Positions 19,301 through 64,000 of a DNA stretch of 64,000 nucleotides are shown here, one piece after another (the first letter of the stretch is position 1; each line of letters begins with the position of its first letter). The notes below the pieces were generated by a model. That model was not told the DNA's origin. It was given only the letters and a program-made list of their open reading frames with translations, and did no database searches. Source of the DNA: Panopea generosa (taxonomy: Eukaryota > Mollusca > Bivalvia > Adapedonta > Hiatellidae); the NCBI GenBank assembly GCA_029582155.1, contig CM055905.1:3523920-3587919 (forward strand), in the 5' to 3' direction. A program made the translations under genes and the position numbers.

Positions 19301-22300
19301 ATTTGTAGCTTGGCAGAGCTAAAAGTAACGTTTGCAGCATTTCATTTCAGAATGAAAAGCATTTGTAGCTGGGCGGAGCTAAAGGTAACGTTTACACCAT
19401 TTCATATCAGAATGGAAATCATTTGTAGCTTGGCGGAGCTAAAAGTAACTTTTACAGCATTTCATATCAGAATGAAAAGCATTTGTATCTTGGCGGACCT
19501 AAAAGTTACTTTTACTGTATTTAATATTAGAATGAAAATCATTTGTAGCTGGGCGGAGCTAACAGTAACTTTTACAGCATTTCATATCAGAATGAAAAGC
19601 ATTTGTAGCTGGGCGGAGCTAAAATTAACTTTTACAGCATTTCATATCAGAATGAAAAGCATTTGTAGCTTGGCGGAGCTAAAAGTAACTTTTACAGCAT
19701 TTCATATCAGAATGAAAATCATTTAGCATTTCGTATAAGAATGAAAAGCATTTGTAGCTGGGCGGAGCTAAAGGTAACGTTTACTGCATTTCATATCAGA
19801 ATGAAAATCATTTGTAGCTGTGCGGAGCTAAAAGTAACTTTTACAGCATTTCATATCAGAATGAAAATCATTTAGCATTTCGTATAAGAATAAAAAGCTT
19901 TTGTAGCTGGGCGGAGCTTAAGGTAACGTTTACTGCATTTCATATCAGAATGAAAATCATTTGTAGCTGGGCGGAGCTAAAAGTAACTTTTACAACATTT
20001 TATATCCTAATGAAAAGCATTTGTAGCTGGGCGGAGCTAAAAGTAACGTTTAATTTGCTACCTGTTCGACCTTTGGCGCTAAAAAATCCCTCACGTGGCG
20101 TTTGTTTTCAAGTTGCCTTAAACGTTAGTTGTTCCCACCACAGTATTACATGTATAATCAGCATTTTAATATCAAAATGAAGAAAGCAATATTATATTCC
20201 GATTTAAAATAATAGGACTAGTTTTATTTTTCTTCTTTTATTTCAGAACGTTACCTAGCATTGATTTATATAAGAATATCATGTGTTGAAAGGTCATTAT
20301 TTCGTTTATATTTTATCAAAGTACTTATTCATTGTTTTTAGCGGCCATCAATCTCTATCCACTACGCTACCGTTCCGTTCAGTAGTTTTGAAAATGACCA
20401 CAGAATATGTAATGCTGGTATTACAGTTTAAGTCAGTTTTGTCTCCATGATTAAGAATTGATGGATCGAATCGCATCGTTGTCACTGGTCAGATTGATTA
20501 CATGTTATTACCCTACAAAATATAATTTGTTGAACGGACCAGCTCATCCAAATTGGTTCGTTAAATTCCAATGTCGGGATAGTCACCTTTGAGCACGTTG
20601 ATTGGTCAATTGCTTCAACTGAAAGTTTGGATGACGTCACAGGTTATAAGCATTCAGTTGCTTTGAATTGTGGGACAGACATAGAATTCCCTGCCTTTTC
20701 AATGAATATTAATTGACCTGATTCGAGTTTTATCAGGTTCTGATATATTATATTAAAATGTATTACTCTGCAAAATAAAAACACTACCACGGATTAATGC
20801 AAAACTGTTTCCATTCATCTGATTCCATTGTTGTTGTATGGTGTTAAGCGTCGCTTTCAACCATTTTTCAGTCATATCGCGACGGTGTCTATTTAATTTA
20901 GAACATTACACTGAGGTATCATGCCGCAGACACATGGTATGATACCAGTCACATTATATTGACACCGGGCCGACCAGTCCTAGAATTTTCCTCTATATGC
21001 TGAGCATCAAGCAAGAAATTCTTTGGTATGACCCAGTCGGGGATCGAACCCACGACCTACCGTAAGCGAAGCGGACACTCTACTACTAGACCACACTGCG
21101 GTATTTGATACCATTGTAAACATAGAGCTTAGAACCTGCTGTAGATATTTATAAGTCGACCGTGCGACCTGTCGACTCTACTTCGGATTTTGGAAGTAGT
21201 AACTGGAGCGATGTAATAAATGGAGCAGTAATGTTTTGATTGATCGATTGATTGATTGATCGATTGATTGTTTCTTTGATTGATTGAACATTAAGCATCA
21301 TTTTAATGCCATCGCGGGCAAACAGAGGTTTCCTGGAATCCTGAAAGGTTAACCAGTACTAGAGCACACCCCAATCTCCGCAAGAAACTGATAACTTCTC
21401 CACTTGAATCAGCGGTTAGAGACGAATGATAATGAGACACAATGTCGTATATCAATCATCACGGAGACTGTTGCCAGGCGGGGACTCGAACTCACGACCC
21501 TGGTTATGTTTTGAATGAGTGAAAAACATATAATAATTGTTACTATGATTTACATACGTTTTTCACATGCTGATAATGACAATGGATTGATGCTATAAAT
21601 TAGCTAAAGCATAACATTATGGTTTGTTATAATAGTTTGCTTGTTTCAGTATTGGAAAGACATAATGACAGGCCCTTGTGTGTTTGGTTGCCGATTATTA
21701 GAACACGATTTATATGTATAGATATGGAAAATAAGATCGCTGGTATCTTCATAATAAGCGAATACATAGTCTGTAGGACGGACCCAGCATTCCCGATTGG
21801 GTCCGTTAAATAGCAATTTTGGGAAAGCCACGTTTGAGCACGTTGATTGGTCAGTTTTAGCTGAACATGTGACTTCACAGTTTAGCAAGCGTTCAACTTC
21901 TATGAATTGTGGGACAGGCATAGAATTCCCTACTTTTTCATTGGTGGTTCATTCTGGGATAGACTAACCAAGTACATGTAATTATCTAGTTTGCAATGTT
22001 GGTTTACAAGGCAGGCAGCATCTAGCCTGTTTACATCAATGCTGTATAATTGTTCAATCTTACAATGGTGTGAACTATGCTTTGCATTAATATTTTCTTA
22101 TTTTTTGCTGTCATTTGGATGTTGACATTGCTATGGAATGTAAAAGTGGTGTGAGAAATGAATACTTGAACCCAGTAATATCAGATAAACATGTGAACAA
22201 GGCCTACCACATAATGTCATATCCGGCAGACGAATGTTTTGTATTCCACTTGAAATTTACTTTCACACTAACCCTAATTATCTCCAATATTGAAGAGTTA

Positions 22301-25300: not shown

Positions 25301-28300
25301 TCACTCAACACTCAGATAATGAGGTGGCTTGAATGCAGAGGACTTCCTAAAACTGGTGATCGAAGCAAGTTGCTGAAAAGGTGAGAATGATATCCACGCC
25401 GTAATCATAAACAATCGCTGTTTTCTGTATTCGCCAATAGAGATTTATATTGTGTATTTGCGCATGTAAATGACTGATTATAAATATATTTCGAATTTAA
25501 CATTATACAGAGAGTCTTTGGAACATTGATTTGTGCAAAACTAGAGGTGTAACAGCTCTTCAGTCTAGCTCGGAGCTCGTAGTAGCTTATTAAAATACCC
25601 CACCCACATGTGCTTATATGTAGTTTATTGTTAGTAAATTATCTAATCCTTGAATTTGAGAACAAGCGATTAAAATAGAGCTCTTCTGCACACTTTCTTA
25701 ACATTATGACTCCCAAATTGTTTATCAAATACATAATTATGTTCTCATGGAAGTAAATTAATAATTTACTCCTGTATATTTTCATAGTACACAGTTGCAT
25801 TGAAGCGTGTTCAAAACAGTGAAGAATTAAATACAAAAAATGTTGTGGTGTCTTGGAAGAGCTAATCAATTTAACAGTATGTTGATGCCTTTACTTGAGT
25901 TTAAGTATGACGAATATGAAATTGATACTGGTCGTGAAACTTTACTTAAAAAACAGTCCGACATACTGTTGGACAGCTTAAAAATTAAACATGACAGTAA
26001 TTTTTACCCTGTTGAGGTTTTAGAAAACGAGGGTGACGAACAATGGTTTAACCAGGGTGACGAACAATGGTTTAACCAGGGTGACGAACAATGGTTTAAC
26101 CAGAGTGACGAAGAATGGTTTAACCAGCGTGACGAAGAATGGTTTAACCGGGGTGACGAAAAATGGTTTAACCAGCGTGACGAAGAATGGTTTAACCAGC
26201 ATGACGAAGAATGGTTTAACCAGCGTAGACTACGCATAACCGCATCACATTGTAAAAAAGTGGCTAATTTTAAGTCTGTGTCTGCTATTTCTAACTTTTT
26301 AAAAGGCAAACTTTGGAATACAGACATGTAACTTCAAGTGCTATGGCATATGGTATTTCCAATTAAGTCATAGCTAGGCAATCATACCAAGCTTCCCAAG
26401 ATTGTTCTATGCTAAAGGTCATTAAACCTGGCTTCTGGGTTTGTAGTGCTTACACAGAGCTAGGGGCTAGCCCAGATGGCCTTATTTTGGACCTAAATGA
26501 ACCAACTCGATATGATGTATTGGAAATAAAATGTCCCAAAGTACTTGAAGGCAAAACAATTTCAAATTTTAAAGATGTACTGTCACAAAAACAGGTCAAG
26601 CAGTTCCCTTTAGAACATCTTCCTTCAGGAGAGATAGTATTGAAAACCTGTCATGCATACTATTATCAAATTCAAATGCAAATGGGAGTCATGGGTCTCA
26701 AATACTGCGATTTTGTAGTTTGGTCTTGCAAAAAGCTGTTTGTAAAATGTGTGCGATTTGATGAGGATTTTTGGGCGACTTTGAAGGAGAAACTTGTTAA
26801 ATTTCATCACTTTTACATGTGCCCAGATTATTTTTGAAATGAGAATTCCCCGTGAACTGCCACCCTATCAAATGTAATATATACATTGTTATATACTTCT
26901 GTATGTATATGTCATGTTGCATATACATATACATTTAACAGAATAAATATCTATTCTGACAAATTATATGTTCAATATCTTGGAGCAGCCAAAATATATT
27001 ATTTCCTAATGAATTTATCTCATATTCGAGCATATTTAAGCAAAAAAATGAGGGCGTAGATTTATTGTACTCTGAAGAAAAAATCACCTTTAATAACAAA
27101 ATAAAACAAGTAGCATATAGTTACATAATTTATTTTTTATATAATTGATAATGTCAATAGTATGGACAAAATATAAACCTCGAGGCGCTGACAACTTGTA
27201 ACATGTGTAAATCATACAATAAGATCAGGGTCGACACTGTTTGCTTCTTAGACCAAAAACTTTCAGTAACACCCTTTAACCAGAAATAGAAAAATCCTGA
27301 ATTATTATTCTTAGGATAGAACAGTACATTATATTAAATCAACATTTTAAAGGTTAAAAGGAAATAGTTAAAAGTAATTGAGATTGAACTTTCGAAATAA
27401 ATGCAAATAAAGGCACTGAAATTATTATTAACAATAGATAGGAAATATTATTATGACCCTTTATTTTGTTAAAACTGCGCTATGGTAAACACTTATTGTT
27501 CAACCTTAATTTCGACCACCCACGATGTGTTTTATTATGCAAATAGGGCGTCCAAGTTAGATAGACTGTCTAGACATCTATATGCTAATGAATCAAAGTC
27601 GTTCATGACAAAATTGATCACGAGATTCATGTCTAGACATCTATATGCTAATGAAACATAAGAGTTCATGACAAAATTGAGCATGTGATCCATGTTTATA
27701 CAGTCTTCGTTATTCATTCTTGAACACTTATTCCTGATATAATAATCTTTGATTTGATATAAATGAAATTCAATATAATCGTAGGGTTTTTTTTTTGCGA
27801 TATTATTTCATACAAAATTTTAAAATTCTAGGCTGTTTGTTTGGATAGATATCAGGGTCGAATTATTGTAAACGTTTAAAGTCTATCCGGAAAAAACAGT
27901 CATACATACTGCGTAAAAACACATTTGACAGTGTTTTTTTTTGTTTTTTTTTGTTTTTTTCAAAAAGTTATTTTGCTTGAGTTGAAAATTACTTCCATGC
28001 ATTGAAACAAACATAACAAATAAAATATACTTTTAATATTTCGTATTAGTCATAGATTTTAATGTGATTGTTACAATGCTAAACTGTTAGTGAATATTTA
28101 ATTGTTTTAATATGTATTAAATGGAAACATGTTAATGACAACACTATACTCAGATATTTTATTGCTTTTAATGTGTATTACAGCACTAAACTTGAATATT
28201 GAATTGTTTTAAATAATGTTATCTGTGTAGGACGTGCGATAAGGATTTGATATGTCGATAATTTCCTGGAATAATGAAGGTCAGAAGAATTGTTTACCGG

Positions 28301-31300
28301 AAGCTTGTTTTGTAAATAACTTAGATTAAGTTTTCTGTAGCGAAACATGGCAATGCAAAAAGGATATGTTTATACTAATAGAATGTTGAGAAAAAACTAG
28401 AAGATGTTTAAGGGGTCATGGTGGTATCTGTCTTTTTATTAGAAACTGTGTTGCTTATCATATAACTATTCTCGAGTGTGATAAAAATTGGTTTATTTGG
28501 GTCAGGTTAGACAAGTTTTTTTCTGTTTAAATGTTTGTGTATATATGTAAAAATGCATATCAATATTAAATACAAACATTTTAGAAAATATGGTAGTAAT
28601 AGTAAAAATTATGGTGGTAATAGAAATTATAGTGAGAGTGAATAACATGGCTGGTTGTCTTGTTATTTACATATGATTAATTATAATATAATCACAAATA
28701 TTATCTAATTAGGTGTTTCCATTAAGCATCTGTTCTCGCATTTAAAATGCGCTGATACAATATGATGCAAGTTTGTTTAAGACAGACTTTTTGTTTGACT
28801 GTAGAAGATTAATGAATTTGAATATACTAGGTTTATTGATATAATAGTTTGGAATATATTGCTTGCGCAGATCATTATAATGAGGACAGATTAAAATAAA
28901 GTGATATTCATCTTCTGTATCGTTTTTGTTATAAAGCACACATTTCCTTTCATTTCTAACTATATTCCTGTGACGTCCGGTTTCTATGTACAAACAATGA
29001 GATGACAATCTTATTTTGGCAATAATGTGTCTATGTTTTTTGTTGTTCAGTTTTATCAAGTAGTCTGATATTTGGTAAGTATGTTTAATATTTCTGTACA
29101 AAGACACCGAAGTGTGGATTAAAATAGTTTCTTGCCAATGATTTATATGAATATCTCTTAATCTATTCCTTAACAATTGTATGAACAAGTTTACAATAAC
29201 TGATTCCGAATGCATCCATATTTCTGCAAAGCTGCTTTGGCACAATAAATTTCGCACTTTCGAAGACCAGTTTTTAACATTCTGTTTTATTTTAAATTTC
29301 TTGTCTCTGTACATTTTTAATGGTGTTTAAAACATAATTTCGGCTTTTTTTTTCTTTATGTAAATTGAGCCAATATTTTATTATTCGTATACACCTTTCA
29401 ATATACAGTGGGAATCTACCAGTTTCTGAGTATAAAGATAAACTATTTGTAGACATTTTTACATCAAGCGTCCATTTACAGAATTTTCTTGGCACCCTTT
29501 CCAGCTGCTCTGATTTATCAAAACCCCATATTTCGCAACCATAATTCAAGATAGATAGAACGTATGAGTCAAATAGGTTAAACATTATATTGATATGTAT
29601 TTCATATGTTTTTGTTACGCTAAGCAAGATACTCATTGTCCGCAAGGCTTTACCAGATAGAGTGCTCACGTTATTAATAAATGACCAATTTCTGACCCGG
29701 AATATGTCCATTTATCATTTTTACTTAACACCCCGCCCTTTCGAAATACAACGATTTTAGTTTTTTCTGTATTAACTGTTAAATTCCATTTGTGGCAATA
29801 TATTTCTAGATTATTAAGTGACGTTTGTAATCCCTTTTTTGTTTCTGAACATAACACTGCATCATAAGCAAACATCAAAAGATAAATAGATAGCTGATCA
29901 AGTGTTATTCCTATATCGGTGTACAGGCATAGTACCACCATTGCAAAAAGGAAGTGCTTCCGTGGGGTAGTCGCATAATGGCGGTTATAAATAATCCTCG
30001 TTTCTTCTTCTTTAAAAATGCAATTTCCTTATTTTAATGCTCATGTTTTTATTCGAATGGCATAATTGATGTATTTTGAACATTTTGATAGCATTGTCAT
30101 GTTTGAATTGTGAATTTAGAAAAAAAAAATGATGCTTGGAAATTGGGGTATGAATACATGATTTCAGAAGTCTACTTTCACTTTGTCAACAGTGTACACA
30201 TTGAGCAGAAAATAAATCTCTTATATGACACATGACCCCTACTTTTCTCATCATATTTTGATATTGCTGAGGTTGACAAACAGTAAAATGTAAGTTTCAC
30301 TCGTTTAATTTGGGTCTCTATGAATGACAAGCCTTCAAACTTTTATTATTTACTATAGAATAAAGAACAAAAATCACCTACATCTGTACACATTAGGGAT
30401 AATCCGTGGTTCACGGGCGGTTGCATACATCACGCCAGATGCGAACTAAATCGTGCAAATAAACGTTATCGCCAATTGAGGACACATAAAAATTCCTGTT
30501 TGATTATAAATAAACGCTGTTATTATTGAAAAATGTCAAACGTATTTTATAAAGCTTAATACACGTATGTAAATAATCAGCCGGGTTTACATACTGCTGC
30601 TCATAGTGATCCCAATAAATTTTGAGACTTAAAACGCAAATATAGAAAACAAAAGTTGTCAAAAGACAACAAAGCTCGTCTATGGGATAAAACTCACCAG
30701 CCATGCAAAGATTGAGATTGGAAGCAAACACCAAAACTTAAATGCAACTAAACGCAAAAGTTTAACCTGGGTGTATACAGACGACGCCGACGCCGGGGTC
30801 ATGGCAATAGCTCTCCTGGACATTCGTCCTGGCGAGCTAAACAATGTAAAAAGAATAGTATCACTGTTGATAATTATTAGGGCATTATGCTTACTAGTAT
30901 CTTCTCTAAAAAAATGCTCACAGTTGTAAGACACCCGTGCACGTAATTTTGTCGAAAACAATAAGACTTTAACAGAATGCCAATTTGGCTTCAGACAAAA
31001 AAAGCGCTGTTGATTGTATTTTTGTGTTGCAGTCGTTGATAAATATAATTTGTTGATTATGAAAAGGCATTTGATATGGTTAATGCAATGGAATATGATT
31101 TACACTGTTGCATTATAATATGTCAATATCAATATTTTGAAATCTATGTACAGCTCTGTTAAGATATGCGTTAGGGTTAACGGTAACATTACTAACTATT
31201 TCGATAGCTATATGGGTGTGAGAAATCCTATCTCCACTTTAATTCATAGTGTTTATTTATGACATAGAAAAAACATTTATAAGATGTAAATGTCGATCTG

Positions 31301-49138: not shown

Positions 49139-50865
49139 TTATGTCATAATATTGTGGACCGTCTTCAAGAAAGTTTTGTAGCATTTCACCCTAGTTTTAT
49201 CATCTATGTTAAAGGAGACAAACCCACTGAACATTTCGAGTAGTTGTAATTCCGGTGTATAAGCACACAATTTTGCATAATTTTCCGGGCCCAACAATCG
49301 TGACAGGTTAACCCATAACTTAGACCGTATATAGTCTTTATGATTGCAAAACAAAATTATATGAAGTGCAATATTTTCAGTTGCTAGGTTACAAGTTTTA
49401 CATATTTCTTCATATCTTTTAGAAAAGAATTTAGAGAACAGTATGAATGCTGAAGAGCATTGTATTTTGCATATTTTAAATTCTTGACTAAATTTCCACA
49501 GAGTACATGGTTCGTATTTTGAATGAACAAGCAAAAATTGGCTTAAGGTAGCGTCGCATAAGAGTCTGTTTCTCCAATCAAACTCTACCGTTTTATGGAT
49601 TTCGATTTTTATCGATTTTTTCCATATATTTTGAGAAGGGAATTCTCCGGTTTTTGAATAGTCTGTTAGATACTTGGTTAAGCCGTACCGACCTAATAAT
49701 CTATATATATCAGGCATGAATCCTTTCATTTTTAGGGGTATGGAAAAGCATGATGTAAGTCTACGGGAAAATACTTGTTTAATTTTGAATTTTGAGTTAA
49801 GCCGACACAATTGCCCGAGTAACAGTAATTTTCTTTTGTCAATAATATGTTTAATAGGGTAAATACCAAGACAGCTTAAGGCAATATCTGTTCTTGATCC
49901 TGTCGGTATATTTTGGATACGCTTAACGCACTGCCGATGAGCTCGTTCTAGGGGACATAACTGATTGTCTGTGAGATCATTCCACAGTTCACTCCCATAT
50001 AGTGCTTTGGGAAGAACAACCGATTCAAATATACGCTTCGATGTTAGGGCGTGTACACCATTTCTATAAATTCCACAGTCAGCAATACTGAAAAATGTTT
50101 TTCTTAATTTAATACAACTTTCTTTTATGTTTTCATTTAATGATAGGGATTTGTGGCATGGTACCCCTAGATGTAGATAGCTATCCGTTTCTGCAACTTC
50201 ATCATTGCCTAGTTTCCATTTGCGTTGTGTGTGCACTTTTTCATTAAAAACAACGACTTAGCATTTACTGGCATCGTATATGTATCGTTCGTTTTGTGAA
50301 TTCACATAACACAATTTGAGGAGGCTGTCTAGTCCGCGTTTGACGTTTGAAATAACTACCATGTCATCTGCTGAAGTTGGACATCCACAACGTATATCAT
50401 ATATCTTAAAACAATATTCACTTTTTTCAATTTCGTACATCAGGTGATTAATGAATACGAGATAGAGATAGGGACTAAGACACTGGCCCTGGCGGGTTCC
50501 TTGTAATATGGGAAACCAGTCCGATGTATAGCCTTGTGACTTTACACAACTAGAGCATTCTACGAAAAATGATGCAATCGACTAGAAAAGTGAAATATCG
50601 ATGCCAGTTTTAAATAATTTAAGTAGCAACAGGGAAATCCATGCCCGATCGAACGCTTGTTTTGCGTCTAAGAAACAGGTGTAGATTTGTGAATTGTTCT
50701 CATCTGCATAGTTTATGCATTCACGTAACATATATGATGTCATGAGACAGTTAACATTTTTCTGAAAACCTCCTTGCGAGGGATTAAAGCTCAATTTTCC
50801 ATCCTTTTCAATCAGCTGAATTAGGATTTTTTCATAAAGTTTTAATATGTATGAACACAATGAGA
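49139..50865 (-). mobile_element. LINE, 5'-truncated, 365-codon intact C-terminal frame
   Basis: Minus-strand RT: GGFQKNVNCLMTSYML and CFLDAKQAFDRAW at 50640-50770, GTRQGQCLSPYLYLVFIN near 50480-50530, the catalytic SADDMVVISNVKRGLDSLL at 50310-50380, then a 365-codon frame (49139-50236) with YLHLGVPCHKSLSLNENI, VVLPKALYGSELWNDL and a C-terminal Cys/His region (CKTCNLATENIALHIILFC). The frame changes at about 50250 and 50580. It differs in family from the LINEs at 28742 and 30363. The insertion ends near 50865, next to a 38-bp array. Confidence 0.9.
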
Positions 50866-52761: not shown

Positions 52762-53348
52762 ATATGTTGTCTATTTTATATAACTTGCTTTAAACAAGAA
52801 ATGGAATCATGGCTCTGTTGGACTAGTTTTGACAGATGTTCAAACAGCTATTCAATATTTACACATATTAAGCGTATGACCATAATGATGATATAAGACG
52901 CCATTTTTGTAAATTATATAAGAATAATATTTGATATGCTCAGTCAATTTCATAAATACAATACAACAGTTAAGTAAAAAACTGTTGTTATGGGGGTCAT
53001 TTATATCGGATACCCTTTTGTTCATGTTCCCTGAAGTTCAGGATTCGAGTCCAGCTCAGTCCAAAAACTTAGCTAGTACTGATGATGGTAATGCACCTGA
53101 CATTATTTTGCCCGCCCGGGGGGGGCGGCGGGCATACACGGGGCTTTAGACAGAACACCATTCCTGAAAGGCGGGAATTTAACAAACTTATTGAATCCGG
53201 GTCCCGGGAAATAGACTTTGGCCGGTTTTTACATCCCGGGGATCGGGAATTTCGACGCCACAAAATAAAAAAGGGGAGTAACCGCGAAAAGTCGAAAGAC
53301 GACGGCGATATTTTTATTCGTGTTTTTCTAGCAGCAGACAGCGCATGC
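52762..53348. other. intergenic; probable promoter and 5' UTR of the SAM/DDE-like gene
   Basis: GC-rich patch at 53105-53135 (a G8 run between CCCGCCC and GGCGG). An open frame runs from 53082 into the first coding exon, but no start upstream of 53349 is supported. Confidence 0.4.
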
Positions 53349-54594
53349 ATGATGGATGACATATCGAGTTTTTCTGTCGAGAAAATTGTGGGATGGGGCG
53401 AGAAGATTGCCCCAGAAATAGGAAGAATATTCAAAGGTATACAGGGATTGTATTCTCCATTTATTTTCACCTATACCCAGACAGTATGCATGGGGCCGAG
53501 CGGTTTTCATGTTTGTCATCTGTTTTCGCGAATTAGACCCATTTTAATATTTTGCGAGTCTGAGAGGCGTCACATGAAACTCACTATATGTCGTATTAAT
53601 AATACTAAATCCACAAAAGAACGTTCACTATACCTGTAGAATATAAACGATTACAGCAGAAAACTTCTAAAAATAAGCATTCAACTTTCATGCTTTCAAA
53701 AATATTTGACTGAAACTTTGTATGGATATTCTTTGGGACTACCCCACAGGGCCTCCCCTGGCATTCGCAATTTCGCCAAATAGGAAAGATTTTGAAATGT
53801 GGTGAAAAAAATACTCAAATGTCAACAAGAGTTTAGTGATTTCAGCTATTATTTCAATGTGTTGGCTGAGAATTCATGAAAATGACAAAATTTGGCAAAC
53901 AATGTTCAAAAGCCAGGGGAAGCACTGCGGCCCTACTCACTTTCAAGGCCGATAATTCTGAATGCAAATAAATTTATTATTTTTAGAATTATATGAATTT
54001 TAAAAACTTTTTATTGCTTATATTTTTTATTTTTTTATCTGTTTTATTCATCTATAATACTGTTTAACTGGATTATTTATTTATTTGTATATTCATGGGT
54101 TAAAGTTTTCAGGACTGGTCCTGAACTTCAGGATTTCAGAAATAGCCATTTTTAGCTCTTGTTGTATACATATATATAGCATGAATTTGTATCTGGTGAA
54201 ATCATTAGTTAGTTGAAAGTTCAAGCTTTTCAAAAGTATAAATATCAATAATTTAAAGAATAAAGATACAGTTTGTCTTTTTTATTTGTGTAACATAAAA
54301 TACTGGTACTGGTCAATTTTGACTTGTGTTCCAATTCATTATGATTTAGCCTTTGAAACCCTGGTTTTGTCACACTCGGTGGTGCATCTTGTTTTGGAAT
54401 GTTCTGGTTTAAGACTTAAAGCTTAACTAAACTCCTTTTAACAGCATTTATGTGTGTGTGTCTTTCCAGAGAATGACATAGATGGCCAAGGACTACTGGC
54501 TGTAGTAGCTGATGACACATTGTTCAAGGAATTAGTTCCGAAAATCGTTCTTAGAGCCAAGTTGAAGCAACAGTTAAACGTCACTGAACAGCAG
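53349..54594 (+). CDS. exons 1-2: SAM-like domain
   Basis: Exon 1 (53349-53436, ATG at 53349 or 53352) and exon 2 (54470-54594) join in phase 1. They encode FSVEKIVGWGEKIAPEIGRI, then an IDGQGLLAVV block and LFKELVPKIVLRAKLKQQL. This is the five-helix SAM signature: a Trp in helix 1, a Phe, 'IDG..LL' and a final 'lG...R.kl...l' helix. SAM domains mediate protein oligomerisation or RNA binding. The acceptor is 'tgtctttccag'; the donor is 'cagcag|gtgagg'. Confidence is good for the exons and moderate for the fold. Confidence 0.75.
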
Positions 54595-57500
54595 GTGAGG
54601 ATCATTATCAGTGAGCATTAAAAGGTTTTAAGCTCAACTATTCGAAGAAAAGATAGAGGTATTGTCATACCCTTATCAAATACTGGTTTGTATATTCAAA
54701 TTTATTGTTTAAACACATAAGACAGGTTAGAATGAAACCTTCATTATGAAGGTTGATTCCTGTCTCCTCCATGTTGAATTACAAGACCTAGTTACCTCTC
54801 TGGGACACAGATTTTGACAGTTGTCAAGATTTCAGCTGCAAAGAATCAGTGTATATTTAAACTATAATATATACCAAAGATCAAGTCCTTCTTGTGCCAA
54901 CTTTGGGACAGTTTGAATCACACAAATCTTATTCTGGGACATTTACAGCAATATAAACGGGGCTGTCTATAGTTTTTCTAATACCTTTAAAGACTTCAAT
55001 AGCTTTTGGATATGCAGGTAGAAATTTTTTACCTGTCCAAGCTTTCATGACTGTGAGAGATGTTTTTGTCTTCCAGAAATGTCAAGAGGCTGGCACAACA
55101 TGCTCTACAGACCAGACTGTGAAGCAGAAACAGTACCAAAAACTTGTCGTAAAGGATGGGAAATGGCAATTTGAAACTGTTCAGATTTCGGTAATTATTA
55201 AATAGCTTTATGATTGCCCATTAATGAAATGAAATGTAGAATACATGTATATTAAGAGATATTTGAAGAAAGTGAAGATTTATTGTCTTCACCCAGCTGA
55301 ATATGGGTCATTATTTGGGTACATAATTAAGAGAGTTACCAAGTAGAGTATTATAATAAATAAGATACAGTGTACAAGACTCCCAAAAAGCCTTGGCTCC
55401 AGTGACCTTTTTAGAGTACTATAAGTACTATAGTATAGTATAGTGCAGTATAGTATACTAGCATGATAAAAAAGTTATAACTTTGATATTTGTGAATTGA
55501 TGTCATTAATATTTTGACACAACAACCCTTTGGGCAAGACCTTTTAAATTACATAATGATCTGTTACCTTGACATCTAATTGACATTGACCTTTAAGGTC
55601 AAATTCTAAAAAAAATGTGATAAATTGCCATTACATTGTTGTAACTTGAAATTATGATTATCTGTCACATTTTAACACATTAACCTTTTGGACAAGATTT
55701 CATTGGCACTCAGTTACATGACCTGGACCCCCCAAATGACCTTAACTTTGAAGATTAAATAAGATCAGATAATAACTTAATTTTTTCCAGGGTTATGTCA
55801 TGTTACAAATGTTTTTTTTTCGTGCAAAAGCTTTACATAGATACAGACAGCTGTAACATTATTGGGCATACTTCGGGGGCATTTGTCACCCTAGTGACAG
55901 CTCTTGTTAAACATTATTAAACTGAGACCATGGGGACTGAGAATTTGAGAAAAGCCCAGCTTGCTGTCCTTGGGCAGCTCTTGTTTGTTAACATTGTCAT
56001 CGAAAGCCGGGTCCAGTTAGCTCAGTCAGTAGAGTGTTAGACTGTTAATCTCTGATTCGTGAGTTCGAGCCCCAGCCCGGCCACATAACTTATGTGGGGA
56101 TTGGTCATGAAAGAATTTGATTACATCTTTTGAAAGATAAATTCAATTGGGTTCTATGACAATTAGTTTCGACTTCCAGAGACGTTTCAATTTTTTCTGG
56201 GTCGTAAGTGGGGTTGGGATATTCTTAGTCACCTTGTCCATAATGTAAAGTTACAGTGTCAAGGCTTTGTCTAATTGTTTGTAGGTTTGTTATTAGTGAT
56301 AAAACTACATTACTAGCACCTGTGTACTACATTAGTATCTACTGTCTTAGCACTAGTAATCTATAGAATCATGCATACAACTTAGGTGAGCCGAGCGGGT
56401 ATAATGTGGTCTTGTTCCTATTTTTTCAGATACCAGACGTTAAGAAGACTGTTGAGGAATTGGCGCAGATATTTAAACCAAAACCAGGTATCACACCATG
56501 GCAGTTGGCAGTGAATGAAGCAGCAAGTCAGCTAGTAGGAAATGACCCATCATTATTACAGGACCGACAATCACTTTTTTCAAGAGCACGAGAAGAAGCT
56601 GCGCTGACCTATGACTTCAAGAAAGGAAAATCAAGAAGTGTTCAAATGGCAAAAACATCTCAGCAACACAACAATAACCAATCTGATGGAAGTCAGAAAC
56701 ATGCTCCACATACAAACAGTGATTTAAGAAATATGAGAATTAAACAGTTAAAGGAAGAAATAGAATTCCAAGACCATGAAACAATTAAACTAAAAAAGAA
56801 CATAACAAGATGTGAAGCTGTCATGGATCATGAAAGATGTTTGTCGTTAAGAAAGGAAATACAGAGAATTAGTTCTGAGAAAAATTTAAAGCAGTTAGAG
56901 CTTCATGAGCTTGAGAGAAGCAATTACAAGAGCAACTGGTACTTTAAGAATAGAGCAGGGAAAAGCAGTACTACATGTAGTAAAAGCATTAAAAAGACAA
57001 AGAAAGAACAAAACAGGTGTGAAAAGAACAAACGGGAGATATCTTCTTTCTTCAAAAGCTCTAGTGATAGTGGAAGTGTTGATGAAGAATCAGCCAAGAG
57101 CATCACTGATGAAATGGCGACAGATAGTACACCTGCCAAGAGCGTCACTGATGAAATGGTGACAAACCGCATACCCACCAAGAGCGTCACTGATGAAATG
57201 GCAACAAACCCTGATGAAATGGCGACAGGCAGCACACCCCCCAAGAGTGTCACTGATGAAATGGCAACAGACAGCATACCGCCCAAGAGCGTCACTGATG
57301 GATTGGTGACAGACAGCATAACCCCCAAGAGTGTCACTGATGGATTGGTGACAGACAGCATAACCCCCAAGAATGTCACTGATGAAATGGCGACAGACAT
57401 CATACCCCCCAAGAGTGTCACTGATGGATTGGTGACAGACAGCATAACCCCCAAGAGCGTCACTGATGAAATGGCAACAAACCCTGATGAAATGGCGACA

Positions 57501-60500
57501 GGCAGCACACCCCCCAAGAGTGTCACTGATGAAATGGCAACAGACAGCATACCGCCCAAGAGCGTCATTGATGGATTGGTGACAGACAGCATAACCCCAA
57601 AGAGTGTCACTGGTGGATTGGTGACAGACAGCATAACCCCCAAAAATGTCACTGATGAAATGGCGACAGACATCATACCCCCCAAGAGTGTCACTGATGG
57701 ATTGGTGACAGACAGCATACCCCCCAAGAGTGTCACTGATGGATTGGTGACAGACAGCATACCCCCCAAGAGTGTCACTGATAGATTGGTGACAGACAGC
57801 ATACCGCCAAAGAGTGTCAATGATGGATTGGTGACAGACAGCATACCCCCCAAGAGTGTCACTGATGGATTGGTGACAGACAGCATAACCCCCAAGAGTG
57901 TCACTGATGGATTGGTGACAGATAACACACACCCCAAGAGTGTCACTGATGAAATGGTGACAGACAATACTCACCCCGAGAGTGTCACTGATGAAATGGC
58001 AACAGACAGCGCTCTCGCAAGCACACATTTTCATTGAAGCCCCTTCTCACTTGTAATGACATGGAGGGGCTTAAAAAATACTTACAGAGTGTGAAAGGGT
58101 TGTCAAAATACACTGAAAATAATGGTGTTACATTTTCTGTTTTAATAAATATGGATCTGTCTGATTATGTAAAAGTTTCAGAAGATATTTGTTCAACAAA
58201 TCATAAAAAAACATGCATGAAGTGTAAATGCAAGATACAGTTGTGTGACGTTATTTTAAGAAATTACTTTGTTGATCTTAAAAGTGCATTTAGAATTTTA
58301 AGTCCAGATTCACATATGAAAAATTACAGAATTCCAAAGGCAAAACGTTTGGTATTACAGTTGCCTCTTGTTAACATTAAGTTGAGCTTTGGAGAAAATA
58401 AAACAAATTTTGTTTTCAGTAATAGTGCAAATGTTACATTATGCAAGGCATTGTTAGCAACTAAATTCGAAGGAAGTGGTGTACAAATTTCAAAAATGAG
58501 TAAAGAAAAATTCCGAAACTTCACTAAGATGGCTAGGTCAGATGATGAGAGAGAGAGACTAACTTGTTTATTAAGTGAAGCTAGTGGACTTGGGTCAAAG
58601 CAGATGAAGATGATGTATGGTGTGAGCAATTTAAATAGTAGGAAACATAGAATGGATGAAGCAACTCGTGAAACAGAAGAAATATGGGCAGGGGTTGAAC
58701 TGTTGGCTAACCTTCAAGTGAATATTTTGAAAGGGTTCGGTGTTGGGTCGTTGGAATCTGAAGAGTCTGATATTGATAGCACAGATGAAGAAACCGACCT
58801 TACCTTTTGTGAAAAAGTACATGTACCTACATATAGCTGTGAAGCAAATGCAAACACTGAGTGTTCAGATGTAAGTGTTGACAATGTTGGTGAAAGTAAT
58901 GAAATGAACGTAAGTCATCAGTATGATTTATTTAAAGAAGTATGCTCAGAAGCACCTTATATGAATCCACATCAATTAATTGATCTTTTGCAAGAGTCTT
59001 AATTAAACTGGTTTGCTTTTGCAAGAGCATTAGAGTGCAACCTTGTTCTTGACAAAGAACAGTTAAATCAACTTCTTCTTGACTTTGCTGGTATGTTGCC
59101 TTCGCTTGGTTTGAATGAGTGTGAAGAAAAACTGATAGAGCAGAGCCGTCAAGCATTTCTTCTGGTCGACAGATTGAAAGAAAGAGAAAATGACATTGAA
59201 ACAATTAATACAGAAATCATTCACTCCGACAGCGAGAATGAAGTTACAGTGAATGAAATGGCAAATATTCATCAACTACTTGATGAAACTGGGAAAAGGG
59301 CAATCGAGAAGAAAGCTCTATCAATTCGTCGTAAAGCAAGAGCTAAAGCAAACAAACTGATAACTGAAAAGCGCCTATTGAAGAGAAAAATGGGGAAAAA
59401 GTGCAGCAAAATTATAAGAGAGTTCCCAGATATTGGACATAGAATGGAAGCTTTTGTTAAAGACTGTAATGTGGGAGCTGATGCATGGAGAAGAACTGGG
59501 GTTCTTACTTTTGATGGTAATCAGAAAAAAACTGTGAAACCAAAGGTAACATATAAACGCATACAAGAACACCTTGAGCAAACTTACAACAGGAAGTTCA
59601 GCTACGGAACAGTTGTTCAGCTGTGTGTGGCTCGCAATCGAAGACATATGTCTGCCAAACGGTATAAAGGTGCAGCAGCAATTACAACTCGTAGAGCCAG
59701 AAAAGGGTTTGAAGTGAAATATAATCCAGATCACCACTGGTCTTGTGGTTTTTACCGTGGTCTAGACATATTACAGTACACTGATGGACGAGGAAAAACT
59801 AATCTTAATAGAGATGACTGTTCTGTGTTCAGATTAGATGCTATGACCTCAAGTCAGCATCCATTACCATGTGTAAGTGGATCAGCTCCATTGACAACAA
59901 AAACGGACTACACTAACAAGTACCCCTCAAACCTTCAGACAACATCTTACAACTTCACAGGGTCTGAAACAACTAATGAAGTATGTGCTGGAATAGTTAA
60001 AGCACAACCTGTACATTCCAAAAATCCTGCACAGCACTATGCAGACTTGTGCTTCCTGGAGACAGTGGACAATGTATCTATTTCTCATGCATTGAAAGGA
60101 TCAGTAGAATGTGTAAGAGTTGATGGAGGTGTGGATGAAGGGCCCGGTCACGAAGAAGTACAGCTATTCTGGACAAAAAGACATCTAGAAAAACCAACAC
60201 GCATGCAGTTGGTTACTAGTCGGGACAGGGGAAATAGCAATTTGAATCGTGTTGAACTGCAGAATGGAATGGAAGGGCGTGCCAGAAGTGGCTTGTTTAT
60301 TCCATCAACACTGAATGGGTCTAATATGGATACAGCAACTGGAATGATAGACAATGAAATGTTGACAAAAAACCTAAATTGTGCTATAGATGTTTACATC
60401 AATTATGTCAATAATGCTCCTTGTGCAAAAACAACAATTCAGCTTTTCAAAGGACCGGATAGTTCAATGGAACAAAGAATAAGACATGTCTTTAAAAAGT

Positions 60501-63500
60501 GGAAAAAAGGAACAATAGCTGAAAAGGAGAGGCTAAAGGTGGAAAATAAGGAGCTTCTAGATGAAGTTGTCATGTTATGGGATTTGAGAAGTAGACATCT
60601 ACAGAGTCATGGTCCAAGAAAATACGTCTTTCATCTTGTGTGCTGCTATCAAGATGGCTGCATCCACCCATTGTGTAGACGAGGCAGACCAGATGACAAT
60701 GACATGGTAATCCAATTTTATTATTTTAAGAGGCTAAAACACTTTGAAATCATCTATATCGAAATAACTTCAAACAGATATTCGCTACTGTTGGCAAGTT
60801 TTCCTGAAAAACTTGCTGACTGAAATGACAGTCATGCAAACAATTTAAAAGTTACATTGCACTGCACGGAATTATTAGGACTTTCTTTATGCTTATTGCA
60901 TTGATGATTGCATTAAACTTAAATTTCTTATAATAGTGCCTGCTTTTTAGTGTATGCTGTGGTTTCCTGGTGGACCACCTCTCACCTTCCTGCCTTTCCC
61001 GGTGCCTGATGGGGACAAAAGACCAGGAAGCTGTCCTGACCATGAGCACTGCGGTGGTCACTTTCTCCCACCAAGTCAAGTCGTTGAAAGAAGGCTTAAG
61101 GTATGATGTACATATTCACATGATTTTAATAACTGGGCTGGTTTCGAGGAAAGTGGATGTATTATCTGATACCTTTAATAGCCCTGACTCCTGCTTTATT
61201 GTGCGAAAACTTCCAACATTTTCATACAAGGGCATTATACCAGCAATGTTAATACAACACTTGTTTTGGCGAAAGATTTGTGTGGTTTTATCTGTCCATA
61301 AGAAGGAATGTGTCTCATCTGGTCTTTGTCAAAAGTGAATCTACTTTGTGATAATTTTAACCTTTAACTACTACATGTACAATGTAGTATAATACTAGTA
61401 TAATATTAATATACCTGCACATTTGTGTGTACATCAATGATTTCAGTCATCACTAGTATGATTTCCTCTTGACATAGCTCATTTTAGTGGTCTTATCAAT
61501 TTGTTATCTCATTTTGATTATAGGGAGTCGAACTGCCGCCCTCTGACGCTTTACAGAAAGCACATTCAGATGGCAGTACAGATGCTGGAGTACTGAGTGT
61601 TGAGTGTACTTTACCAGTGGAAGAGGTTTGCATTGACCACTTTAGCCAATAAATTGTTAAAATTTGTTCTTAGGAAGATTTTAGATGGTTAATCAGGTCT
61701 CAGATGAGCGCTCCAGAGCACTCTTGTTGTTCTTAAACAAGCTTCACATGATTTTGCAGCCATATATTACCAACATTGTTTTTTGTCAGTTACTGTTTCA
61801 ATTGCTTGTGGTAACGAGGCTGTGAATCTTTGCTATCGTTCTCATCTTCAGTGGTCTTGTCTTGCTTTACGGTCATGACTTGCTATAATTAAAACTAAAT
61901 TGAATCTGCAGAAAATATGTTTAGGCTTTGTTCCAATCTGATAAATGTGAATGTATTAAAATGTTGATTTATATTTAAACAGGTGAACATTTGGTTGGAT
62001 CATCTGACGAGTGTTGCTGCCAACCGAAAAAGGGGCAAGGCAAAGGCAGCCGAGACACGGTATTCGAAAAAGGTATTTGGGCACATTATGAGTGGAATTT
62101 TGTAAATGATTGCCTCAACATTAAATTAGTATGAGGCCAAAAAATCTCTTTTTTTTCTGAAAGCCATACAAAACATAAGGGGTATTGCACTTCTGTGGTC
62201 TAAATGTGTGTATTTTATCATTGACATGGTGGGGAATCATTGACATGGTGACCATGTAACATGGTATCTTAAAGTCCCATTATGCATTTGAAAACTTTAT
62301 TTGAAATGAAAGAGTATTCACTCCAATGACATCCAGTAAAATTCTGATGTAAAAATTTGCATTGGATTTCTTGAAGACATGAAAGAAAATATTCGAAATA
62401 CACTATAAATATATTGCACTAATGTAAGCGCAAGTGTAATAATTGGAGGTATGTTTGGATGAAAAAATAATTTCTGAAGGAAAGTAATGCGAAAATGAGC
62501 CATTTTCTTCCATAAGAGGATGAGTATGATCTGTTTATTCAGTAATTGAAATTTTACTCACAAATGCATTATGTTCCTTTAAACTTAAAATTGGTGGATT
62601 CTCCTGAAAAAGTACAATGCTGTTTATAATGTCACTGGTGGCTACTGAAAGTCCTGTCAGTTACGCATACTCTGCATACTCTCAACAAAATACTTTCTGT
62701 TAAACAAAAGATATTGACAAAAATTCTCACGTGGACACCTGAATCTGACAGATTATCAATTGCTGCGATACCATGTCATGTGGTCTCAATATCATGTGAT
62801 TCCCCACCATGATTGCAAGATTAGTTTGATAGACTACTAGCAGATTTTTGAGAAAATAATGTGTTTTCAACAAGAACAAAAAACAAAATTCAGTACCATT
62901 TTTGTTCCAATAGAATTAAAAACAACCTATTGTTTTATCTATCAAAATATATGTTGGAAATCTTTGTTAAGTTGTGCTACCAAATTATTAATTATTAAAC
63001 AATCCAGGCTCAAGCTCCTATCCAGGCTCAAGCTCCTATCCAGGCTCAAGCTCCTATCAAGGCTCAAGCTCCTATCCAGGCTCAAGCTCCTATCCAGGCT
63101 CAAGCTCCTATCAAGGCTCAAGCTCCTATCCAGGCTCAAGCTCCTATCCAGGCTCCGGCTCCTATCCAGGCTCTTGAGGAGAGTGCACCAGATTGTGAGT
63201 TTTTTTTGTAGCTTTGTGTTCATGGTGAGCTATGATTGTCCAATCTTCATGTAACTTGGTCAGAATGTATGGCTGAAATCTCGGCCAAGTTCAAAGCTGG
63301 GTCATGTTGGGTCAAAAACTATGTCACAAGGTCAGATGTTAGAAAAAGAATGTGAACACATTAGAGGCCACACTTTTGGCCCATTCTTCATGAAACTTAG
63401 TGTAAATGTTCATCTCTATGAAATCTAGATCATGTTCGAAATTGGGTCATGAGGGGTCAAAAGTCTCTAGGTCAAATCTTAGAACATTTTTGGTCCAATT

Positions 63501-63632
63501 TAAATGAAACTTAGTCAAGTTTGAAACCTTAAAGATTATAAAATTCACTCTATTTCAGGTATAAATGTGGAAGTGTCCAGGTTTGGCCGCAGGAGGAGGA
63601 AGAATGTCCTTTTTAGTGACTTTTTGTGTTAA
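53349..63632 (+). CDS. SAM-coiled coil-DDE-like multi-exon gene, frame broken
   Basis: A gene of nine exons: 53349-53436, 54470-54594, 55077-55190, 56430-60706 (contains the breaks), 60951-61100, 61524-61625, 61983-62072, 63008-63194 and 63559-63632. All introns are GT/AG and all phases agree. The domain order is a SAM-like N terminus, a linker, a conserved helical region, a coiled coil, a PIP-box-like motif, a 42-bp coding minisatellite, a large conserved region with D, D, E spaced as in DDE transposases, a Cys/His cluster and a basic C terminus. The order suggests a transposase-derived protein, perhaps a nuclear DNA-binding protein. I recall uncharacterised, often multi-copy invertebrate proteins with the same C-terminal motifs (WFPGGPPL, VNIWLDHL..V..NRKRG). 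This copy carries a frame change at 58028-58037 and a TAA at 59000-59002, so it is probably decaying. No terminal inverted repeats are evident. Confidence 0.75.
54595..55076. other. intron 2, no feature seen
   Basis: AT-rich intron sequence. Confidence 0.6.
55077..55190 (+). CDS. exon 3: linker of the SAM/DDE-like gene
   Basis: 38 codons, phase 0 at both ends (acceptor 'gtcttccag', donor 'tttcg|gtaatt'). Encodes KCQEAGTTCSTDQTVKQKQY and VVKDGKWQFETVQIS. No domain recognised. Confidence 0.7.
55560..55920. repeat. dispersed intronic repeat
   Basis: 'tgacctttaaggtcaaattc' and 'ttcgggggcatttgtcaccc' followed by 'tagtgacagctcttg' look like a dispersed repeat that I recall from molluscs. There is only one clear copy in this window. 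Confidence 0.4.
56006..56083 (+). mobile_element. tRNA-derived sequence in intron 3
   Basis: Starts 'gccgggtccagttagctcag' and ends in a B-box 'gagttcgagcccc' and 'agcccggcc'. The anticodon arm reads GTT (Asn-like), but the acceptor and anticodon stems pair poorly, so it is more likely a SINE head than a functional tRNA. Confidence 0.5.
56430..58037 (+). CDS. exon 4, part 1: conserved helices, coiled coil, PIP-like motif, repeat region
   Basis: Acceptor 'ttttttcag', phase 0. Opens with IPDVKKTVEELAQIFKPKPG and a helical PWQLAVNEAASQLV region. A coiled coil follows at about 56720-56930 (LKEEIEFQDHETIKLKKN, LRKEIQRISSEKNLKQLELH). A basic stretch leads to KREISSFFK at 57030-57056. The minisatellite of 14-codon units follows (57090-58010). 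The frame ends at TGA (58035-58037). A frame shifted by -1 continues into the next coding block, so the stop looks like a mutation or an indel at the TTTT run 58028-58031. Confidence 0.8.
   Translation: MPDVKKTVEELAQIFKPKPGITPWQLAVNEAASQLVGNDPSLLQDRQSLFSRAREEAALTYDFKKGKSRSVQMAKTSQQHNNNQSDGSQKHAPHTNSDLRNMRIKQLKEEIEFQDHETIKLKKNITRCEAVMDHERCLSLRKEIQRISSEKNLKQLELHELERSNYKSNWYFKNRAGKSSTTCSKSIKKTKKEQNRCEKNKREISSFFKSSSDSGSVDEESAKSITDEMATDSTPAKSVTDEMVTNRIPTKSVTDEMATNPDEMATGSTPPKSVTDEMATDSIPPKSVTDGLVTDSITPKSVTDGLVTDSITPKNVTDEMATDIIPPKSVTDGLVTDSITPKSVTDEMATNPDEMATGSTPPKSVTDEMATDSIPPKSVIDGLVTDSITPKSVTGGLVTDSITPKNVTDEMATDIIPPKSVTDGLVTDSIPPKSVTDGLVTDSIPPKSVTDRLVTDSIPPKSVNDGLVTDSIPPKSVTDGLVTDSITPKSVTDGLVTDNTHPKSVTDEMVTDNTHPESVTDEMATDSALASTHFH
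57090..58010 (+). repeat. 42-bp coding minisatellite, about 21 units
   Basis: Units encode SVTDEMATDSIPPK and variants (SVTDGLVTDSITPK, NVTDEMATDIIPPK). Two units carry the 21-bp insert ATNPDEM. A block of six units (long, short, DGLV, DGLV, NV, DGLV) occurs twice in succession, about 273 bp apart, a segmental duplication within the array. The minus strand is open too (347 and 314 codons), a by-product. Confidence 0.95.
57995..59002 (+). CDS. exon 4, part 2: conserved region, -1 frame
   Basis: Open in the -1 frame from 57995; conserved-looking sequence starts KHTFSLKPLLTCNDMEGLKKY near 58019 and continues through CMKCKCKIQLCDVILRNYF, a Cys-rich turn, and a basic region with ERLTCLLSEASGLGSKQMKM. 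It ends NPHQLIDLLQES at a TAA (59000-59002), after which the same frame continues directly as LNWFAFARALECNLVL. The stop is probably a single-base change. The region is upstream of the DDE-like block and may be its DNA-binding or helix-rich N-terminal part; no named domain is recognised. Confidence 0.7.
   Translation, partial: NGNRQRSRKHTFSLKPLLTCNDMEGLKKYLQSVKGLSKYTENNGVTFSVLINMDLSDYVKVSEDICSTNHKKTCMKCKCKIQLCDVILRNYFVDLKSAFRILSPDSHMKNYRIPKAKRLVLQLPLVNIKLSFGENKTNFVFSNSANVTLCKALLATKFEGSGVQISKMSKEKFRNFTKMARSDDERERLTCLLSEASGLGSKQMKMMYGVSNLNSRKHRMDEATRETEEIWAGVELLANLQVNILKGFGVGSLESEESDIDSTDEETDLTFCEKVHVPTYSCEANANTECSDVSVDNVGESNEMNVSHQYDLFKEVCSEAPYMNPHQLIDLLQES
59003..60706 (+). CDS. exon 4, part 3: DDE-like catalytic region
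   Basis: Same frame as the part before the TAA; the first internal ATG is at 59093. A highly basic helical region (KALSIRRKARAKANKLITEK near 59310) and a helical TYKRIQEHLEQTYNRKFSYG region, perhaps a helix-turn-helix, come first. The acidic residues are D in FRLDAMTSS (59837), D in VRVDGGVDEGP (60122) and E in NLNRVELQNG (60254), spaced 94 and 43 residues apart. The last block resembles 'SPDLNPIE' of the IS630/Tc1/mariner group. Further conserved-looking pieces: RSGLFIPSTLNGS and a terminal VCCYQDGCIHPLCRRGRP Cys/His cluster. The donor is 'acatg|gtaatc'. Catalytic role is inferred from spacing only. Confidence 0.75.
60951..61100 (+). CDS. exon 5: WFPGGPPL motif and Cys/His cluster
   Basis: Acceptor 'tgctttttag', phase 0, donor 'cttaag|gtatga'. 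Encodes CMLWFPGGPPLTFLPFPVP and then CPDHEHCGGHFLPP, which with the CCYQDGCIHPLC of exon 4 forms a likely zinc-binding cluster. I recall the WFPGGPPL pattern from uncharacterised invertebrate proteins. Confidence 0.8.
61101..61523. other. intron 5, no feature seen
   Basis: AT-rich; nothing recognised. Confidence 0.6.
61524..61625 (+). CDS. exon 6
   Basis: 34 codons, phase 0. Encodes GVELPPSDALQKAHSDGST and VECTLPVEE. The donor is weak ('gag|gtttgc'). Assigned by frame and by continuity with exon 7. Confidence 0.65.
61626..61982. other. intron 6, no feature seen
   Basis: AT-rich; nothing recognised. Confidence 0.6.
61983..62072 (+). CDS. exon 7: VNIWLDHL motif, basic
   Basis: 30 codons, phase 0, acceptor 'tttaaacag', donor 'aaaaag|gtattt'. 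Encodes VNIWLDHLTSVAANRKRGKA and KAAETRYSKK: an amphipathic helix and then a basic tail. Confidence 0.8.
62073..63007. other. intron 7, no gene seen
   Basis: Contains 'cattgacatggtggggaatc' near 62220 and its near complement 'gtgattccccaccatgat' near 62797, an inverted repeat of about 15-20 bp enclosing some 560 bp. A small non-autonomous element is possible. Confidence 0.5.
63008..63170 (+). repeat. 18-bp coding minisatellite, nine copies
   Basis: 'gctcaagctcctatccag' in tandem, with 'atcaag' in units 3 and 6 and a C in the last unit. Units 1-3 and 4-6 are the same three-unit block repeated. Confidence 0.92.
63008..63194 (+). CDS. exon 8: AQAPIQ repeat
   Basis: Acceptor 'aaacaatccag' (weak), phase 0; donor 'gatt|gtgagt', phase 1. 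Nine 18-bp units encode AQAPIQ (two read AQAPIK, the last APAPIQ), followed by ALEESAPD. The exon is in frame with exon 7 and exon 9 only in this reading; the other open frames (plus and minus, 93-131 codons) are by-products. Both short proline-rich and repetitive, so it may be a linker. Confidence 0.75.
63195..63558 (-). repeat. dispersed repeat in intron 8
   Basis: Blocks 'gaggccacacttttggccca', 'cttcatgaaacttagtgtaa' and 'gggtcaaaagtctctaggtc' repeat within the element (about 63215-63540). I recall this family as common in bivalves. A second piece starts at 63680. Orientation is not determined with certainty. Confidence 0.6.
63559..63632 (+). CDS. exon 9: terminal exon
   Basis: Acceptor 'ctatttcag', phase 1 in. 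Encodes INVEVSRFGRRRRKNVLFSD and ends at TAA (63630-63632). The basic RRRRK stretch could be a nuclear localisation signal. AATAAA follows at 63645. Confidence 0.8.
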
Positions 63633-63644
63633 ATTTATTGTTAA

Positions 63645-63650
63645 AATAAA
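63645..63650 (+). terminator. poly(A) signal AATAAA
   Basis: Hexamer 13 bp after the terminal stop of the SAM/DDE-like gene; the surroundings are AT-rich. Confidence 0.6.
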
Positions 63651-63679
63651 ATAAGAAGTTTAATAAGTGTTGTAACTTT

Positions 63680-64000
63680 TTAACTCACCTGAGCACAAAG
63701 CTATTGTGATCGGTCAATGTCTGTCTTCGCAAGTCTGGTGTCCTCAACTTTTAGTGTTAGCACTCTAAGAGGCCACAGATATGGTTCAATCGTAATTAAA
63801 CTTGGTCAGCATGCTTACCATCCCTATAGAAACTGGGTCATGTGGAGTCAGAAACTAGGTTACTGGGTTTATTTTGTAGCTAAACTATTCTAGGAAAATA
63901 AGAGCTTATACGATCATTTGTGCGTCTGTGTCCGCATTGGTTAAAGTTTTTTAAAAGTCTTATACATTCTATACTATCAAAGATATTCAACTTAAACTAG
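63680..64000. repeat. dispersed repeat, 3' flank of the SAM/DDE-like gene
   Basis: Begins 'ttaactcacctgagcacaaa' and shares 'gaggccac', 'aaacttggtcagcatg' and 'gggtcatgtggagtca' with the intron-8 repeat. Runs to the right edge. Confidence 0.65.

Follow-up and report, generated by a model that had tools for sequence, protein, structure and literature searches.

In the window, the 64,000-nucleotide stretch of Panopea generosa DNA analysed here, an earlier note made from the letters alone had placed between positions 53349 and 63632 one gene of nine consistently phased exons, which was read as a transposon gene or transposase derivative in which a SAM-like N terminus is fused to a block with D, D and E residues. 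This gene is part of a DNA transposon, and its coding segments fall into two open reading frames (ORFs) on the same strand (Table 1). The segments are indeed joined by GT...AG introns and the phase is consistent inside each frame, but they do not form one continuous gene. ORF1 consists of exons 1-4, the frame of exon 4 closing at a TGA (58035-58037), and the D-D-E block belongs to ORF2, which lies in a different frame, open from 57995, with 58061 as the first ATG used, 23 bp from the ORF1 stop. All 11 element copies that were read, the window copy among them, contain the stretch with this TGA; as the SAM-like segment lies in one frame and the D, D and E residues in another, the N-terminal SAM fusion is not supported as proposed. 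The idea of a single gene scarred by two random lesions was half rejected on the same comparison, as an in-frame TAA of ORF2 (59000-59002) is private to the window copy and a sense codon in the 10 others, but the TGA stretch is common to all. The open frames of 556, 335 and 606 codons exceed the longest one (279 codons) in 1000 Markov-1 simulations of 56430-60706. Among the other long frames, those of 348 and 318 codons on the reverse strand lie in a minisatellite, and the remaining three have at most 129 codons. The limits of the last two exons were adjusted by one to five bases before the final translation of ORF2.

Table 1. Features of the element, in window coordinates unless stated otherwise
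Feature	Position	Strand	Basis or remark
Target site duplication of 3 bp (TAA), left copy	53089..53091	.	Second copy beyond the window, at 64493-64495
Terminal inverted repeat at the left end (42 bp)	53092..53133	+	Alignment of both ends
Transposon portion within the window	53092..64000	+	True end 64492; alignment of 10 other copies
ORF1 exon 1, first part of SAM-like segment	53349..53436	+	Intron and phase reading; SAM weak
ORF1 exon 2, remainder of SAM-like segment	54470..54594	+	Intron and phase reading
ORF1 exon 3	55077..55190	+	Intron and phase reading
ORF1 exon 4, with an NCD2-like domain, a coiled coil presumed by eye and an in-frame 42-bp minisatellite, closing at the TGA	56430..58037	+	
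NCD2 domain of NAB type, with one homologous exon in a host NAB-like gene	56490..56633	+	Pfam, NAB1 structure, host exon
42-bp (14-residue) minisatellite in ORF1	57094..58010	+	Exon 4 length varies among copies
ORF2 main exon: helix-turn-helix-like segment and D-95-D-44-E block	58061..60706	+	Start codon assumed
Segment with best Pfam match HTH_Tnp_Tc3_2, E 0.044, below cut-off	59516..59700	+	Pfam; scrambled control
First acidic codon (D) of the proposed triad	59837..59839	+	Translation, copy comparison
Second acidic codon (D)	60122..60124	+	Translation, copy comparison
Third acidic codon (E), in GNSNLNRVE	60254..60256	+	Translation, copy comparison
ORF2 exon, second half of Cys/His cluster	60951..61100	+	Intron and phase reading
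ORF2 exon	61524..61625	+	Intron and phase reading
ORF2 exon	61983..62072	+	Intron and phase reading
ORF2 exon with 18-bp in-frame minisatellite	63008..63194	+	Repeat and translation reading
ORF2 last exon and stop	63559..63632	+	Intron and phase reading
Right terminal inverted repeat, ~41 bp	64452-64492 in extended coordinates (= L031:572-612)		Outside the window

The transposon spans 53092-64492 (11,401 bp), and its right end lies beyond the window, so that the limits given in the earlier note, which fall within the element, are too narrow. When both arms of 10 other copies were compared with the window, which was lengthened for this by one further stretch, similarity began at ~53092 and stopped at ~64492, the exceptions being copies with an end lost or with insertions. 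The long alignments of these copies to the interval are mostly at 96-99.6% identity, with 94.3% as the lowest value (minisatellite included). Alignment of the two ends with each other revealed ~41-bp terminal inverted repeats (TIRs) starting TGCACCTG, with termini TGCACC; an inverted-repeat search confined to the window had not found them, since the right one lies beyond its limit. The 3 bp flanking the element are identical on both sides in all 10 copies with both ends, being TTA in five, TAA in three, and TAT and TTT in one each (+ strand of the contigs), which makes TWA the target in eight of the 10. The element thus combines inverted repeats at both ends, target duplications of fixed length and dispersed copies, the features of a class II TIR transposon, and the view of the locus as a transposon gene is borne out.

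The number and age of the copies were assessed in a 1.47-Gb assembly of 39 contigs. The genome contains at least 11 occurrences of the ORF2 stretch 60000-60400, spread over nine contigs and 99-100% identical. A 26-mer of the TIR, with up to 2 mismatches allowed, gave 22 matches (none for the reversed control), which correspond to 10 copies with both ends and 2 with one end only. The genome-wide copy number, proposed earlier as a check, comes in this search to 12 TIR-bearing copies, 11 of which contain the ORF2 stretch. Copies with both ends measure 10.9-19.0 kb, and no short copies are present among the 26-mer matches. In the twelfth copy, C6 (L043, C6:78573600-78581600), the genome searches gave no ORF2 match; it has a 4.9-kb insertion within intron 1 and has kept the ORF1 exon. 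Two copies on C5, C5b and C5c (32.09 Mb and 32.41 Mb), have flanking DNA in common and probably descend from one insertion whose host segment was duplicated afterwards, which leaves ~11 independent insertions. The coding sequence of the window copy differs from that of 10 others by a mean of 0.62% and the non-coding sequence by 0.63%, and this divergence of ~0.6% indicates that the spread of the element was recent. Within intron 3, ARAGORN reports at its relaxed setting only a tRNA-Asn(GTT)-like stretch (56010-56084), either the head of a short interspersed element or a tRNA pseudogene, which was located in all 11 element copies read and is identical across 80 bp in eight of them, the window copy included. 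Rfam gave no matches.

ORF1 carries a module known from NAB co-repressors. With a 75-residue piece as the query, Pfam assigns residues 21-68 of exon 4 to the family NCD2 (PF04905, NAB conserved region 2), at E 2e-06 and 28.3 bits against a cut-off of 25; the score depends on the query, being 26.1 bits on a 329-residue piece and 23.7, below the cut-off, on the whole exon. The NAB1 structure 2yuf matches the NCD2 piece as well (E 0.0036), with VNEAAxQL, LL, R, LF and AR in common, although three designed proteins outscore it in total through summed weak repeats. A search of the genome for NCD2 found one copy of the element (score 26.9) and, side by side on C1, two pieces of a NAB-like gene; the same search in 14 control genomes gave no matches. 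The weaker of the two C1 pieces has a TAG inside the matched stretch. When two loci were searched, ORF1 aligned with the C1 host exon across 46 columns with 45.7% identity and E 1.7e-07. Judged by eye, the matched stretch on C1 begins on the CAG of what may be a splice acceptor and stops no more than a codon away from a possible GT donor. The simplest inference is that the module descended from an exon of a NAB gene. In NAB proteins, NCD2 acts in repression; here the module, with its VNEAAxQL...LL..R..LF..AR pattern matching one host NAB-like exon, lies inside a transposon ORF, and Pfam matched no other NAB family. In the host NAB-like gene itself, at C1:52.64 Mb (L047, L048), NCD2 is apparently divided between two exons.

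Apart from NCD2, Pfam gives for ORF1 only a below-cut-off SHIRT match (E 3.8), and the coiled coil in exon 4 was judged by eye. For the SAM-like N terminus described earlier, the match is weak: the segment encoded by exons 1-2 has no Pfam match at E<=10, but against a home-made profile of six SAM sequences it scores above all but 13 of 20,000 shuffles (E 3.8).

ORF2 contains the three acidic codons highlighted earlier, which are in a single frame in the translation, at residues 279, 374 and 418 counted from 59003, that is, with D-95-D-44-E spacing, followed by a C-terminal Cys/His cluster. The D, D and E codons are intact in 10, 11 and 11 of the 11 copies, respectively, the first one being missing from C19 through a deletion; since the copies are ~99% identical, this conservation carries little weight. 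We infer that ORF2 encodes a DDE-type transposase, presumably of RNase H fold, because of the position and spacing of the acidic residues, because GNSNLNRVE resembles by eye the core ends of ITm and ISAzo13 proteins (the profile test being negative), and because ORF2 is the sole other long frame outside the repeat in a mobile element with TIRs and 3-bp duplications. The helix-turn-helix (HTH) of Tc3 type is not significant as a match, since scrambled controls are nearly as good: four of 10 (nine shuffles and one reversal) gave unrelated matches with E 0.06-0.086.

Taken as a whole, the stretch very probably makes up the greater part of a young cut-and-paste DNA transposon with two genes and of unassigned superfamily. 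In the mechanism that we propose, the ORF2 transposase would bind the inverted ends, excise the element and join it to staggered 3-bp TWA targets by DDE chemistry. ORF1 would be an accessory protein composed of the SAM-like segment, the NAB-type NCD2 module, a helical region and a repeat tail, which might oligomerise, contact host chromatin via its NAB-like part and probably help assembly on chromatin or regulate the element. The NCD2 module would have its probable origin in a host NAB gene exon, taken up long ago.

Several observations weigh against this picture. The profile check of the translated exons, made against Pfam, NCBIfam and PHROGs, recovered no transposase family for the ORF2 core, nor did a sequence search with the core find a PDB chain; with the whole ORF2 main exon, the PDB sequences gave unrelated chains only (E 0.08 or worse). 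AlphaFold, run twice without relatives, returned pLDDT values of 33 and 29 and no usable fold. No diverged relative of ORF2 was found in viral contigs (searched with a 569-residue query, a 78-residue core and patterns), in prokaryote contigs (78-residue core only), in phages or in the animal's own genome, where matches at E <= 1e-5 are limited to copies of the element. Two bacterial contigs retrieved by pattern were judged to be chance matches: L001 has best E values of 0.92 for ORF1 and, around the searched motif itself, 0.006 for ORF2, and L002 one of 1.3 for ORF2. A full-text search for the motif strings gave no papers, and the titles and beginnings of abstracts shown by the literature searches contain no description of such elements; proteins similar to those of this element are presumably present in other invertebrates, and the element may already have a name.

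The state of the frames among the copies is a further difficulty. The part of the ORF2 main exon that was read is free of stops in only three of 11 copies (C14, C7 and C5b), over the codons covered (780; 755 in C7); five copies, including the one in the window, have one or two stops, and the other three (C19, C16, C8) have dozens after frame changes or deletion. On the side of the two-gene reading stand these three stop-free copies and, in the whole-genome search, two of the 11 copies (C5b and C14) with a 942-codon frame that is free of stops across the query segment. ORF1 exon 4 can be traced in 10 of the 11 copies (not in C4), and its frame reaches the usual end in only two of them, the window copy and C7; in the eight others it ends early, in five before the repeat. 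Exons diverge among the copies as much as introns, and amino-acid-changing versus silent differences (N/S) are approximately neutral, with no depletion at amino-acid sites. The neutral N/S and the equal divergence of exons and introns thus give no sign of constraint on the proteins, as is expected after insertion. Finally, the two-protein organisation is predicted from DNA alone.

The strongest alternative is that the element belongs to one of the named superfamilies that make 3-bp duplications, such as PIF/Harbinger, Zator or the TAA-type pogo/Fot group, but has diverged too far for Pfam to recognise it; we regard this as a real possibility, somewhat short of an even chance. According to a passage in PMC4482050, PIF/Harbinger elements make TWA duplications and mostly have two ORFs, one with an HTH and a DDE domain and one accessory. 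Our element shares the TWA preference (8/10, the others being TAT and TTT) and the two ORFs, and PIF/Harbinger is closest to it in lifestyle. It differs in its 11.4 kb with introns, in an accessory protein that is SAM-like with NCD2 and has no Myb/SANT match in Pfam, and in an ORF2 core that lacks a Pfam match, including one to a Harbinger-type DDE domain at E<=10 (HMMER filters discard most weak matches). Three-base duplications are also described for Zator in part of PMC10045372, and TAA for most Fot elements in part of PMC7386202. With Zator and ISAzo13 (TP36), the element has in common the 3-bp duplication, a similar D-D-E spacing and, by eye, a G-S-N-[KR]-[IV]-E core end. The ISAzo13-like proteins L033-L035 contain GTSKWN[KR]IE, which resembles GNSNLNRVE and was itself in the retrieval pattern, and the spacings in L035, counted by eye, are ~+93 and +43 residues, close to the +95 and +44 of ORF2. 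Against this, ORF2 does not match PF07592 (Zator proteins themselves were not compared), and comparison of ORF2 with the three near-full ISAzo13-like proteins gave a profile probability of 0.2% and a misplaced alignment, so that no profile similarity backs an ISAzo13/Zator link; of the four contigs retrieved by motif, L032 was excluded for its short frame. A genome search with PF07592 found nothing, which is not proof of absence because 14 control genomes gave nothing either.

The catalytic core of the IS630-Tc1-mariner group ends in an LN-x-[IV]-E-like motif, and ORF2 has such a core end; the best, though non-significant, Pfam match of its HTH-like segment is the Tc3-type HTH. Within this group, which includes pogo/Fot, the TAA of most Fot elements is a further likeness, but a TA duplication is not seen here, where 3 bp are duplicated, and there is no DDE family match. 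The kinship of NLNRVE with IS630/Tc1/mariner put forward earlier is plausible by eye and by spacing, but received no support from Pfam, PDB sequences or the ISAzo13 profile comparison. EnSpm/CACTA elements have CACTA/CACTG termini, unlike the TGCACC found here. Kolobok elements, as a passage of PMC9587614 has it, duplicate TTAA and carry C/DxxH between the second D and the E, whereas the duplications of our element are of 3 bp and no C/DxxH was read by eye between D374 and E418.

A second alternative, which we consider rather unlikely, concerns the gene structure: the first exons of ORF1 could be spliced past exon 4, or past its minisatellite, into ORF2, so that one gene would produce one SAM-DDE protein and exon 4 would be an alternative end. 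Exon 3 stops in phase 0, entry into ORF2 through an acceptor-like TACTTACAG, whose end is at ~58087, would be in phase 0 too, and the two frames lie on one strand with only 23 bp from stop to assumed ATG. This fusion is itself read from sequence rather than from transcripts; in the window copy, moreover, no stop interrupts exon 4 between its acceptor and the end of the repeat, and in C7 its frame closes at the same point. That the locus is a non-mobile host gene or domesticated transposase, to which the many introns and the host-type NCD2 module might point, was set aside as having a negligible probability in view of the twelve TIR-bearing copies, the target duplications in all 10 copies with both ends and the neutral divergence.

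Under the two-gene transposon reading, an ambiguous gene prediction becomes a defined mobile element with ends, a target preference and copies, and a transposon is found to carry a domain homologous to an exon of a transcriptional co-repressor. Only tentatively, and with less expectation than for descent from a named group, it may be suggested that the element represents a superfamily that has no name yet, made up of large animal DNA transposons with introns and TWA duplications, whose accessory protein would use its captured NAB exon module to manage chromatin or silencing at the element's own copies. If the transposase does sit outside the named superfamilies, the DDE catalogue would be extended, and profile surveys built on listed superfamilies could miss the element; one example of such a survey uses 17 superfamilies, as stated in part of PMC10294476.

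Elsewhere in the window, a 60-bp satellite of ~59 units with very long open frames occupies 16157-19724, and there are many further minisatellites. Two frames at 25831-26837 resemble by eye a YqaJ-type recombinase, one of them with an in-frame 24-bp repeat, and frames at 5390-6597, 28742-30028 and 49139-50257 resemble, again by eye, pieces of the reverse transcriptase of non-LTR (long terminal repeat) retrotransposons.

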